Shown: positions 2,446 to 21,443 of the stretch, in pieces
How positions within the stretch are numbered: the first letter of the stretch is position 1
Layout: each line of letters starts with the position of its first letter
Source of the DNA: a virus
DNA length: 42,048 nt
Direction: 5' to 3' (one strand)
IMG/VR virus record: IMGVR_UViG_3300030419_006993
Span: 1 to 42,048 of that record
Program-made: the position numbers and the translations under genes
The notes under the pieces: generated by a model
What the model was told of the DNA's origin: nothing
Databases searched by the model: none
Seen by the model: only the letters and a program-made list of their open reading frames with translations

Positions 2446-3807
2446 TTACTTTCCTTTCTTAAATTGCTTGTATTTCTCTTTAAGTAGTTCTCCTTGCTCT
2501 TTAGCGGTTTTGGCCACAACACTATCCATTGTTTCACCCGTGGAAGGAAGAACTTTCATTTTAACTTTACCCGTGTCCATGAAGAGCGGATATATTAACC
2601 CATCTGGACCATTGCGATTCTTCGCTATAAAAATGCGCCCACTATTTGAATTTTTATCTTGAACTGTGCGGGATAGAGAAAAGATAAAATCAGCCACAAA
2701 ACATTTGTTAAATGCTTCAGAGATCGATTCCATTGTAATCACTTCTGCGTTCAAACCACTCCGGTTAGTCTGACTCGCCGTATAACACGGGCATTTAAAT
2801 TCTTGAGCGAGCGCTCTCAAATCCTCGTAAATAGTCTCTAGTTCGTGCCTTTTCTCTTTTCTTATTGTATTTGGACGCAACAAATCCCCATAATCAACAA
2901 TAATCATATCAATAGGAATACCACGCTGGCGTAATTTCTCCAAATGCGCCTTGATTGCGTTAGGAGAAGCAGATTTCGTGGGGTATTCTTTAATGATAAG
3001 ATTTCCCTCTAATTCTTTGACAGTGCCAAAGATCTGTTCTTTAAACGAAAACAAATCTTTCAGCGGCACACCTGTAATGCAACTGTCATAGCGAGAGGCG
3101 ATGACAGTTGACGCCAACTCTAATGTATAGTGTATAACAGTTTTCCCCGCTTTTATAGCCTCTGCCCCCAAATGAACCAAGGCCATGCTCTTGCCGGCGC
3201 CGGTGGGTGCGATAACAACTCCTAATTCGCCCTCGCCCAGGCCCCCTTTACAAATATCGTCAACTTCTTTCCAGCCTGTACTCACAGGGTTTCGAGCCTT
3301 TATCTCAAATCTCTGCTCAAAATCTACTTTATAATCGTATCCAAATTTGTTATCACTCCCCAATTTGAGAGCTTCATTAATAACTTCACTGATCTCGTCA
3401 AAGGAAGAGCTTTTCAGAAGCTTGACCGATTCAAGCATTGCCTCTTTGAGTTTCTGCTTGCGACAAAAGTCCAGAGAAGTCTCTTTGATATATTCATCGC
3501 CCTCCACTCCAAAACCAGCTTTATAAATGCGAGCAAAATAATCCCTTACTTGCTTCTTTACAGCATCATTCTCCTCATCGAGGTCAGAACGAAGTAAAGT
3601 AATCATTATCTTGTTGGTGGGATGAACTCCGTATTTATTACGATAATCAAATATCTTTTGAACAAATACTTGAAGGTATCTAAATTCAAAGAACTCAAAC
3701 TTGAGCACCTCCTGCATCTGGTCTGAGAACGACCGGTCTTCCAAGATTAGTTGCGACAAATCTTCCTGAAAGGCTTTCCCGTATTTAGAAAAATCAACTT
3801 TTTCCAT
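2446..3807 (-). CDS. 41: Replicative DNA helicase, gp41/DnaB type
   Basis: Hexameric 5'-3' helicase that unwinds the fork ahead of the phage polymerase. The RecA-fold motor is clear: Walker A APTGAGKS at about residues 200-207 and Walker B IIVDYGDLL near 302-310, followed by the SQTNRSG stretch typical of DnaB-family helicases. The N-terminal 170 residues are helical and match no primase. I chose the ATG at 3807. The frame extends upstream to 3855, but GGAG lies 5 nt before the 3807 ATG, and that ATG overlaps the stop of the exonuclease gene, which suggests translational coupling. That gives 453 residues, close to T4 gp41 (475). No primase gene (gp61 type) is visible in the window. Confidence 0.9.
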   Translation of the reverse strand: MEKVDFSKYGKAFQEDLSQLILEDRSFSDQMQEVLKFEFFEFRYLQVFVQKIFDYRNKYGVHPTNKIMITLLRSDLDEENDAVKKQVRDYFARIYKAGFGVEGDEYIKETSLDFCRKQKLKEAMLESVKLLKSSSFDEISEVINEALKLGSDNKFGYDYKVDFEQRFEIKARNPVSTGWKEVDDICKGGLGEGELGVVIAPTGAGKSMALVHLGAEAIKAGKTVIHYTLELASTVIASRYDSCITGVPLKDLFSFKEQIFGTVKELEGNLIIKEYPTKSASPNAIKAHLEKLRQRGIPIDMIIVDYGDLLRPNTIRKEKRHELETIYEDLRALAQEFKCPCYTASQTNRSGLNAEVITMESISEAFNKCFVADFIFSLSRTVQDKNSNSGRIFIAKNRNGPDGLIYPLFMDTGKVKMKVLPSTGETMDSVVAKTAKEQGELLKEKYKQFKKGK

Positions 3808-4766
3808 CATTTCTCCGTGGTGATACGCTTCATGTTTTGAAAAAGGGATGACCAATCAAAAGCGCCAAAGCCGTCCTCAGTCATCATCTTAACAGTACCT
3901 GTCTTGTTAAATTCCGGCACAAACTCGCTCACCGCGTGACGAACGGTTTGTTTCCCCTGTATGGGAATATTTGGGGAATACAATTGCATTAGCTTATAAT
4001 TCTGTTCAATGACACCCACATTCTCTTGAATGGTCTGATATACTTTGGCCTTTGATTCACTCATCTCGCCGCAATGGTCGATAAGAGTGCCTATATTATG
4101 AGCCTTTTCTTCGCTCAAAAAAGGAAATCTCTTGGCCACTGTTTTCATTCCAACGCCCCCAACGCCCTTGAGATTATCACTCTTATCACCAGAAATGGCA
4201 CGTGCGAGGGCGAAGTTCGAAGGGTGAATACCGTACTCCTCTACCACCCTCTTGGTATTCAAAAACACCTTCTGAATTGGCCGATAAAGAACTGTTTCGT
4301 GGTCACACAATTGAATAAAATCCTTGTCACTGGAAATGATAACCTTTTGCCAGCCAGCATATTGAGGCAACTGAACTGCATACGCGATCACATCATCTGC
4401 TTCGATGTTTGGCAGCATAACTTGTATAACAGGCAGACCATTTAAATACTCGGTCAGACGGGTTTGTTGCCAAATTTTATTCTCTATTTCTTCGTTCTCG
4501 GACATGTTCCGAATGTCCCGATTCAGCCGGATTGGTTTCCTTCCCGCTTTGTAATCTTTTTGGACTAATTTGCGTCGTTTGGAGCCGCCTATTCCATCCC
4601 ATGCAATAATAACACGGTCTGGCTTCATTTCCCTCACCATTTTCTGTAAAATCTTAAGAAAGCCCTTAATTCCTCCGATTGGATAACCATTGGTGGAGAG
4701 GCTGGGATCTACAATATACGCCCTGTAAAGCATGTTTAGGGCATCAATCAATATTACTCTTTTCAT
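3807..4766 (-). CDS. 5'-3' exonuclease / flap endonuclease (T4 RNase H-like, PolA N-terminal family)
   Basis: Removes RNA primers and 5' flaps during lagging-strand synthesis. The 319-residue protein carries the conserved metal-binding acids of the FEN family: D8 in LIDALN, D57 in AWDG, the EADD cluster at 122-125, SSDKD at 145-149 and GDKSDN at 193-198. A helix-hairpin-helix DNA-binding segment GVGGVGMKT follows at 201-209. It is a stand-alone nuclease, as expected in a phage whose polymerase lacks a 5' nuclease domain. The ATG has GAGG five bases upstream. The stop overlaps the helicase start. A terminator upstream separates it from the secreted-protein gene, so its own promoter is not obvious. 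Confidence 0.9.
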   Translation of the reverse strand: MKRVILIDALNMLYRAYIVDPSLSTNGYPIGGIKGFLKILQKMVREMKPDRVIIAWDGIGGSKRRKLVQKDYKAGRKPIRLNRDIRNMSENEEIENKIWQQTRLTEYLNGLPVIQVMLPNIEADDVIAYAVQLPQYAGWQKVIISSDKDFIQLCDHETVLYRPIQKVFLNTKRVVEEYGIHPSNFALARAISGDKSDNLKGVGGVGMKTVAKRFPFLSEEKAHNIGTLIDHCGEMSESKAKVYQTIQENVGVIEQNYKLMQLYSPNIPIQGKQTVRHAVSEFVPEFNKTGTVKMMTEDGFGAFDWSSLFQNMKRITTEK

Positions 4767-4779
4767 AATTCCTCTACGT

Positions 4780-4815
4780 AAAAAACCCTCCCCAGTATAA
4801 CCGAGGAGGGTTGAA
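4780..4815 (-). terminator. Rho-independent terminator after the secreted-protein gene
   Basis: An 8-bp perfect stem (AACCCTCC with GGAGGGTT, arms 4805-4812 and 4784-4791) and a 13-nt loop are followed on the minus strand by a run of T at 4785-4780. It lies 27 nt after the stop of the exported basic protein gene and before the exonuclease gene, and would isolate that gene from the replication operon. Confidence 0.85.
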
Positions 4816-4838
4816 AAGTCAATAGTAAAATTTACTTA

Positions 4839-6326
4839 TTAACGGTGGGAACGGCGGCTTTGTGGGCGCGCAGAAGCGGTTCTGCGAGCTTGGTTCCCAC
4901 GAGGGCGATGTGCTTGTCGCTTTACACTTCCTCTGCGTGAGTTGTTCACCTGTGGCCGTTGTGGGGCTTGGCGCTGGTTGCGAACCTGCGGACGCTGTTG
5001 ACGAGCCTGGGGGCGCACCTGCTGCCGCTGGGGTGTGCTGCGCCTCTGACTAACCTGTGGGCGCTGCGGGGACCGACGTTGCTGCACATGCTTCCTTTGC
5101 GTCTGACGCTGAGAAGGCCGAGCAGAGGGGCGCCTTTGCCGGTGGTTCTGCTGATAGCTCTGACGCTGACGCTGCGGAGGTCGTTGCTGTGCTCGCGCAG
5201 ATCGCTTGGGTGACCGCTGAAACTTTCGAGGCGACTGTGCCTTTTGGTGTCGTTGGTTCCCGCGTCTTTGAACATTGCCACGATTAGGCATACTCTGTCG
5301 CTTGTTGGCACCATTTCGCAAATCACTGCGCTTGGGAAGGTTCTTCCCTTGACGGTGATGACGCTTATTCTGGTTGACCCCGGACTTGCCTCTCTTGGCT
5401 GAACCGCGCTTGTTGGACCCCTTATTATTGTTATAACGCTTGTTGTCCGAACTGGTGCGAGGAGAAGTCGCAGACTGCTTCTTGCGATTTTTCTGCTGCT
5501 TATGGTGCTTGTCACCCATTCGCCCATGTTGCTTCACGTCAGAGCGCTCGACAGGAGTGGCTTTCTTGTCTTTTTTCCACTTCTTCTTGGCCACTTTGTT
5601 GTTTTTCTTCCAATCATTAGACTGATAGTGCTTACTCACGTTAACGGTGACATTGTTGTTGTTAATAACCCTGTTAACCACCACCTGCTTGTTATAACTA
5701 TTCTTTTTCCAATGACCAGTGTGCCACTGGTGCGTGTGCCATGCGTGGTTCTGATTGTTGACATATGTCACATACTGCGTATGGTGATGATGCCGCATGG
5801 TGTAAGGCTGGTGATAAATCTGGTAAGGGTTGTAGTGATGGGCATACAAATGTCCATGGTAGTGGAATTTATTATGCATCCAATTAAACGCACTCCTCCA
5901 GTGAACATGAAAGGCTGGATAAGTCAGAAACGTCTGAGTGGCTCGATGATAGGCATTGTAAGTCACACGTGTGGGACACATGCGATATCCATCGTAATGC
6001 ACATTCAAACCCCTGTTATACGCCGCAAGGACAATTTTGCCAGCGCGGAAACAACTAACAAAGTCTGTATGACTATTAACCCATGTCCACCGATTAAGCC
6101 TGTAATCGAACACGTGGTCATAAACAATGATTGGCACATTTTGAGTATTGTTATAATTGCTGTATCCATCATCATATTCATATGAATCATATCCATCGTC
6201 GTAATATTCATCATAATCATTGTCATAGTGATCGTGATCTCCACAGGCCATGGCGCTCCGAAGCAGCAAGACCGAACTCAGCAAAAATACTGTGATTGTG
6301 ATTCCTAAAATAATTGCTTTTTTCAT
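4839..6326 (-). CDS. Exported Asp/Tyr-, His- and Arg/Lys/Gln-rich low-complexity protein (moron candidate)
   Basis: Not recognised as a member of any family. The 495 residues begin with a clear Sec signal peptide: KK, a hydrophobic core at 5-22 and AMA before C28, so cleavage after A27 is likely. It is only a weak lipobox. Next come an acidic Asp/Tyr-rich stretch (29-60), an aromatic module with C92 and C117 (60-150), a His-rich stretch (138-206, with HHHH at 179-182), and a very basic Lys/Arg/Gln/Pro/Ser tail of about 280 residues with no acidic residue after D335. A strong SD (AAGGAG) precedes the ATG. It has its own promoter and terminator, and its 3' half is visibly richer in G+C than its neighbours. 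The product should act outside the cytoplasmic membrane. Possible roles are binding metal, DNA, envelope polyanions or superinfecting phage, all of which are guesses. Confidence 0.8.
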   Translation of the reverse strand: MKKAIILGITITVFLLSSVLLLRSAMACGDHDHYDNDYDEYYDDGYDSYEYDDGYSNYNNTQNVPIIVYDHVFDYRLNRWTWVNSHTDFVSCFRAGKIVLAAYNRGLNVHYDGYRMCPTRVTYNAYHRATQTFLTYPAFHVHWRSAFNWMHNKFHYHGHLYAHHYNPYQIYHQPYTMRHHHHTQYVTYVNNQNHAWHTHQWHTGHWKKNSYNKQVVVNRVINNNNVTVNVSKHYQSNDWKKNNKVAKKKWKKDKKATPVERSDVKQHGRMGDKHHKQQKNRKKQSATSPRTSSDNKRYNNNKGSNKRGSAKRGKSGVNQNKRHHRQGKNLPKRSDLRNGANKRQSMPNRGNVQRRGNQRHQKAQSPRKFQRSPKRSARAQQRPPQRQRQSYQQNHRQRRPSARPSQRQTQRKHVQQRRSPQRPQVSQRRSTPQRQQVRPQARQQRPQVRNQRQAPQRPQVNNSRRGSVKRQAHRPRGNQARRTASARPQSRRSHR

Positions 6327-6366
6327 ATTTTTTCTCCTTAAGAGTAATTTTTTATCTTACTTTTAT

Positions 6367-6395
6367 ATAATAAGCCTTTTTCTATTCAAAGTCAA
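6367..6395 (-). promoter_or_regulatory. Sigma70-type promoter for the secreted-protein gene
   Basis: On the minus strand TTGACT (6395-6390) is separated by exactly 17 nt from TATTAT (6372-6367), close to the bacterial housekeeping consensus. It lies about 40 nt upstream of the ATG at 6326 in a gene-free gap of 109 bp, with SD AAGGAG near 6340. It probably allows expression by unmodified host RNA polymerase, either early or independently of the phage programme. Confidence 0.8.
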
Positions 6396-21434: not shown

Positions 21435-21443
21435 TATAAATAG
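21435..21443 (-). promoter_or_regulatory. CTATTTATA intergenic element, copy 1
   Basis: Minus-strand ACTATTTATA in the 78-bp gap before the 112-residue tail gene, 33 nt upstream of its ATG. The same 9-mer occurs in three other gaps. It may be a phage late promoter variant. Confidence 0.45.

Follow-up and report, generated by a model that had tools for sequence, protein, structure and literature searches.

An exported polycationic protein in the variable interval after uvsX of uncultured T4-like phages, with a possible role at the envelope of the infected cell

Background

Why does the replication region of a T4-like phage carry a gene for a large, exported and very basic protein with control signals of its own? 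The question is raised by gene X of a 42-kb uncultured virus record (the window, i.e. the whole stretch of DNA analysed), the gene content of which is that of a T4-like myovirus of bacteria. The major genes of the window all lie on the minus strand: those for NrdA, a DnaB-like helicase, a 5'-3' exonuclease, UvsX and a gp32-like SSB, and further on those for the tape measure, sheath, major capsid and portal. An earlier note, made from the sequence alone, had described X as a self-contained moron cassette for a protein outside the known phage families.

Results

Gene X and its composition

Gene X is flanked by a methyltransferase gene and the 5'-3' exonuclease gene, and it does lie, as had been claimed, amid replication genes of the same strand (nrdA, dnaB, exonuclease, methyltransferase and uvsX, all minus). 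The gene call is based on the open reading frame, on the homologues in the related loci L002, L003 and L004, and on purifying selection. The layout is as follows:

3807-4766, minus strand: 5'-3' exonuclease, landmark downstream of the slot
4839-6326, minus strand: gene X, exported polycationic protein of 495 aa
6436-7272, minus strand: methyltransferase-like gene between uvsX and X, missing from this interval in L002-L004
7275-8390, minus strand: uvsX (RecA-like recombinase), landmark upstream of the slot
6246-6326, minus strand: signal peptide of X, residues 1-27, junction AMA-C with Cys at +1
6141-6245, minus strand: Asp/Tyr-rich block, residues 28-62, pI 4.05
5877-6140, minus strand: conserved aromatic core, residues 63-150, with C92 and C117
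5697-5876, minus strand: His-rich block, residues 151-210, with 16 His
4842-5696, minus strand: polycationic low-complexity tail, residues 211-495 (285 aa), length-plastic among relatives

Residue counts bear out the block architecture that had been read from the translation (Sec signal, Asp/Tyr, Cys-containing aromatic, His and basic blocks). Residues 28-62 hold 12 Asp or Glu and nine Tyr and not a single Lys or Arg; the tail, residues 211-495, has 85 Lys or Arg versus 7 Asp or Glu. The last acidic residue of the 495 is D335, which leaves the final 160 without any, and the computed pI of the mature protein is 11.25. The 3' half of the gene is indeed richer in G+C than the adjoining stretches (0.576 versus about 0.36-0.48), because of its Arg, Gln and Pro codons and a raised GC3 of 0.58.

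Where it could be measured, omega in X is about 0.04-0.17, which indicates purifying selection in core and tail. For the pair L002 and L003 the core gives about 0.04 and the tail 0.08-0.10, from which it follows that the low-complexity frame is translated and subject to selection. With an omega of about 0.1, the tail cannot be a spurious ORF or one read in the wrong frame. Moreover, gene X evolves faster than its neighbours. Between the window and L002, dN of X amounts to 0.145 for the core and to 0.317 for the tail, compared to 0.057 in the exonuclease and 0.034 in uvsX.

Direct homologues of X

Homologues of X were found in L002, L003 and L004 only, all from uncultured close relatives and always between uvsX and the exonuclease gene. 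The flanking genes of these relatives (uvsX, exonuclease) are 86-93% identical to those of the window, and X is 40-66% identical overall. The homologue in L004 has 246 residues and lacks most of the tail, whereas the tail in L002 contains three exact 30-bp repeats; the tail thus grows and shrinks. The Cys at +1 is invariant in all four proteins. It is preceded by AMA or ADA in three of them (AxAC, which is not a consensus lipobox) and forms part of the consensus lipobox LTSC in L004. In spanins, AWAC has been verified experimentally as an unusual lipobox (PMC6139136).

The neighbourhood of X is itself variable. The window has the methyltransferase gene, L002 and L004 have a gene for an exported DUF3108 protein between uvsX and X (L002:5555-6304, PF11306, 9e-24; L004:4153-4914, 1e-19), and L003 has neither. 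According to the literature, DUF3108 proteins adopt the YmcC fold and form barrels in the outer membrane (PMC4364669).

No significant match to X was found in Pfam, PHROGs or the PDB sequences, nor to its N-terminal part with the tail masked, in agreement with the earlier view that the protein stands outside known families. Cultured phages gave no tblastn match, and two scans of prokaryote genomes (about 85,000 species genomes) returned no relative, although distant relatives may escape these scans, which relied on short exact peptide patterns.

Control signals

The promoter, Shine-Dalgarno sequence and terminator that the earlier note had ascribed to X were all located. The relevant elements are:

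6367-6395, minus strand: sigma70-like promoter of X, TTGACT-N17-TATTAT; hexamers and 17-nt spacing identical in L003
6334-6339, minus strand: Shine-Dalgarno sequence AAGGAG, 7 nt ahead of the ATG of X, read from the sequence
4784-4812, minus strand: rho-independent terminator of X, 13-bp stem, fold z = -3.4
4794-4822, minus strand: sigma70-like promoter TTGACT-17-TATACT of the exonuclease operon; same sequence in L002, L003 and L004
6419-6427, minus strand: TCTAGTTAT element, a degenerate leader or late-promoter-like motif

Promoter-like forms also occur upstream of X in L002 (TTGACT-17-TATTCT) and L004 (TTGACT-17-TATACT), where they sit inside the end of the upstream adjoining DUF3108 gene. 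Promoter-like matches are no more common in the region than in shuffled sequence (5 observed, 6.1 in shuffles), and the promoter call therefore rests on conservation. The terminator hairpin is kept in L004 through a change of a C-G to a T-A pair. Strong terminators are rare in positions 1-40000 of the window, where we found two, that of X and one after the major capsid gene. In all four contigs the terminator of X and the promoter-like sequence of the exonuclease operon overlap (4822-4784). The degenerate TCTAGTTAT is retained upstream of the sigma70-like promoter in the window and in L003.

Two properties of an autonomous cassette were thus found: a promoter and terminator of its own, from sequence signals and their conservation, and presence or absence between the same flanking genes, from the loci of relatives. 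The insulated cassette is a trait of the small clade of the window (4/4 contigs).

A positional class after uvsX

Comparison of the locus across relatives confirmed that X is confined to four contigs and that elsewhere the slot is empty or otherwise filled; a gene with the same boundaries in all relatives and devoid of separate transcript signals, which had been named as grounds for rejecting the cassette, was not what we found. Sequence beyond uvsX is available for 81 distinct relatives. By a strict filter, 28 of these encode an exported, basic and usually His- and Tyr-rich protein immediately after this gene; the thresholds of the filter were set after seeing the data, and signal peptides were called by a home-made rule instead of SignalP. 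The proposal of a moron consequently stands in part. X has its own signals and occupies a variable slot, but it is not a lone moron, since 28 of the 81 loci host exported basic proteins.

The analogues are shorter than X and differ in sequence between groups; they are like X in position, export signal and basic, His/Tyr-rich composition. No clear exported basic gene other than that of the slot is present in G001, G002 and G006, all near-complete or long relatives. G005 has a weak exported basic gene at the same place, and G003 and G004 have none. In L022, L065 and L092, uvsX and the exonuclease gene nearly abut. For one group of analogues an identity as WXXGXW-repeat proteins was considered; no Pfam match supported it.

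An invariant motif, CGTCTAA, closely precedes the slot gene in 20 of the 28 loci that have one and occurs in 1 of the 53 others (Fisher p = 1e-11, a value that overstates independence because these loci share ancestry, though their leaders and proteins differ). The lone exception, L028, has after the motif a basic ORF, missed by the filter, whose N-terminus is hydrophobic. In most of the 28 slot loci neither a sigma70-like promoter nor a terminator was found. A conserved RNA hairpin around CGTCTAA was hinted at by single-sequence folds and gained no support from the alignment. We favour the reading of CGTCTAA as a putative promoter-like or operator-like DNA motif. Its TCTAATTA core resembles an ACTA(A/T)TTAT element upstream of structural genes (sheath, tube), and by analogy with T4 this element may be a late promoter.

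Elements of the form CTATTTATA occur upstream of structural genes at 21442, 23214, 29060 and 32389 of the window (minus strand) and are enriched across the group. They are a candidate late promoter that differs from the TATAAATA of T4.

Predicted structure and possible kinship of the analogues

The core of X is predicted, at low confidence (pLDDT about 55), to fold as beta-beta-alpha-beta-beta-beta, and the short proteins of the L048 group as beta-beta-alpha-beta-beta, with a pLDDT of 73-90 over the first 50 residues. A Cys stands at the start of the helix in both predicted folds. A common beta-beta-alpha-beta topology of the X core and a short analogue is suggested by these models and hints at a possible common descent. 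In a comparison of core sequences, L004 versus L059 gave p = 2/4000, the best of nine pairs, of which the other eight were not significant; a profile comparison of the X core with three analogue groups was not significant either. Fold searches gave no credible match for the X model (best E 0.31) or for the short analogue (Z at most 3.3), and a known fold may escape a model as poor as the former or as small as the latter.

Other observations in the group

A conserved H-type pseudoknot, NNCCGCAGGGAGGCAYGGGNNACAGRTGYCTCA, with compensatory changes (C-G / A-T / T-A and T-A / C-G) occurs twice in the window (9570-9533 and 9839-9802, minus strand) and in relatives G001 (51741), G002 (141300), G005 (19009) and G006 (37066). 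In four relatives it follows the gp32-like ssb gene at a distance of 8-23 nt, and it has no match in Rfam; possibly it is an RNA through which the single-strand binding protein regulates its own synthesis.

In G001, the contig of L002 and closest relative of the window, adjacent genes for malate synthase (PF01274, 5e-109) and isocitrate lyase (PF00463, 3e-101), a glyoxylate-shunt pair, lie downstream of nrdA (61035-63790; L120:1035-3790). An aceBA operon is known from a T4-like marine virus genome (PMC5332604). The phage genomes G002 (176247-178409), G005 (145237-147348) and G006 (152405-154519) encode a number of large exported lipoproteins, among which those of about 700 aa in G005 and G006 look alike.

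Discussion

X is very probably an exported protein of the cell envelope. It would be exported by Sec and is probably lipid-anchored via the invariant Cys at +1, presenting a small beta-rich core that could form a disulphide and, with it, a His block on a long polycationic tail, which may grip anionic polymers of the envelope of the infected cell (LPS, peptidoglycan) and so coat or occlude it, such that further phages could not adsorb or inject. We put the specific assignment to superinfection exclusion at somewhat less than an even chance. An exclusion protein made from its own promoter fits the promoter and terminator, which are conserved in four contigs and consistent with early or constitutive expression, and exclusion agrees with an insulated sigma70-like cassette, with rapid divergence and with the turnover of the slot; T4 Spackle and T5 Llp are precedents for it. 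Also in its favour, two of the four members of the clade have an exported DUF3108 protein in the X slot. Against it stand the lack of homology of X to any exclusion protein in Pfam or PHROGs and its large size compared to Spackle, Llp or Cor, and the analogues, which mostly lack a sigma70-like promoter and have a seemingly late-promoter-like motif instead, argue against a role that is early only.

The strongest rival is a function in lysis, which we consider fairly unlikely for X. In phages without spanins, an exported polycation might build up at the envelope and, when the wall has been cut by the endolysin (here an SLT transglycosylase), destabilise the outer membrane in a disruptin- or spanin-like manner. 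In the six relatives, five of which have an SLT transglycosylase, spanins were not found by a home-made scan for lipoproteins and C-terminal TM segments nor with phrog_456, and the leader motif of the relatives resembles late-promoter-like elements. Among phages that infect Gram-negative hosts, about 13% have no spanins, and endolysin C-terminal domains that are highly positive have been proposed as a substitute (PMC6139136, PMC12819732). However, G003 and G004 have neither an exported basic gene nor a recognisable spanin, a membrane disruptor driven by a sigma70-like promoter in the replication region would be set free early, X with its 495 aa is unlike the short amphipathic helices of disruptins, and in G001 about 11 kb separate the SLT gene from the slot gene, with no spanin pair found near the latter. 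A complementary distribution of slot gene and spanins was not seen among the six relatives, in none of which a spanin was recognised. The wider proposal, that a locus-bound, fast-diverging class of exported polycationic proteins under CGTCTAA effects the outer-membrane step of lysis in a large uncultured T4-like group that lacks spanins, with X as an extreme member that has a tail of 285 residues and acquired its own promoter, we judge unlikely.

Two further readings are weaker. That X scavenges metal, haem or polyanions in the periplasm by means of its His and Asp/Tyr blocks is quite improbable. The 16 His of residues 151-210, and the recurrence of His-rich stretches in unrelated slot analogues, would suit the binding of metals or of free periplasmic nucleic acid; yet no known metal-binding domain was found in X, metal binding has no support beyond the His content, and the most constant feature of the analogues is the basic tail, for which metal binding has no need. 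That X is a virion-associated or morphogenetic protein with an incidental signal peptide is very improbable: the late-promoter-like motif of the relatives would agree with it, but the analogues carry export signals, the gene sits among replication genes, and it is missing from relatives whose major capsid protein is closely related.

Exported phage proteins of the envelope are already known; the positional class and its control motif are the more interesting part. Within a widespread uncultured T4-like group, the slot after uvsX repeatedly holds differing exported basic proteins under a shared motif, a turnover indicative of strong, changing selection at the host envelope and suggestive of a fast-changing weapon or shield on the surface of the infected cell. 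The slot proteins are thereby named candidates for two tasks, i.e. the breach of the outer membrane by spanin-less phages and the exclusion of competitors by uncultured T4-like phages.

Comparison with known systems

The disruptin of the phage phiKT type is, like X, phage-encoded and cationic, and it acts on the outer membrane. It is a short amphipathic helix (PMC12819732), whereas X combines a signal peptide with a folded core (mostly beta, at low confidence) and a long tail. The o-spanins and u-spanins are outer-membrane lipoproteins, as is predicted for X, and their AWAC lipobox is close to the AMAC of X (PMC6139136). Unlike spanins, X has no linked i-spanin, C-terminal TM segment or coiled coil that we could find.

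T4 Spackle (gp61.3) resembles X in being phage-encoded and exported; it is an early gene product, and its gene, like that of X, lies near replication genes. Spackle acts early, in the periplasm, to exclude other phages and inhibits the gp5 lysozyme (PMC7677548); in contrast to X, it is small and compact and has no polycationic tail. No family match connects the two, and the X model is too poor for a comparison of folds. T5 Llp, an outer-membrane exclusion lipoprotein made early (PMC9586334), and T1 Cor share with X a signal peptide with Cys at +1, lipidation being predicted in the case of X. Sequence homology to Llp or Cor was not found, nor a PHROG or Pfam match. Llp and Cor are short and receptor-specific, and the llp gene adjoins that of the receptor-binding protein, whereas X is basic, is encoded beside uvsX and, at 495 aa, by far exceeds Spackle, Llp and Cor in size.
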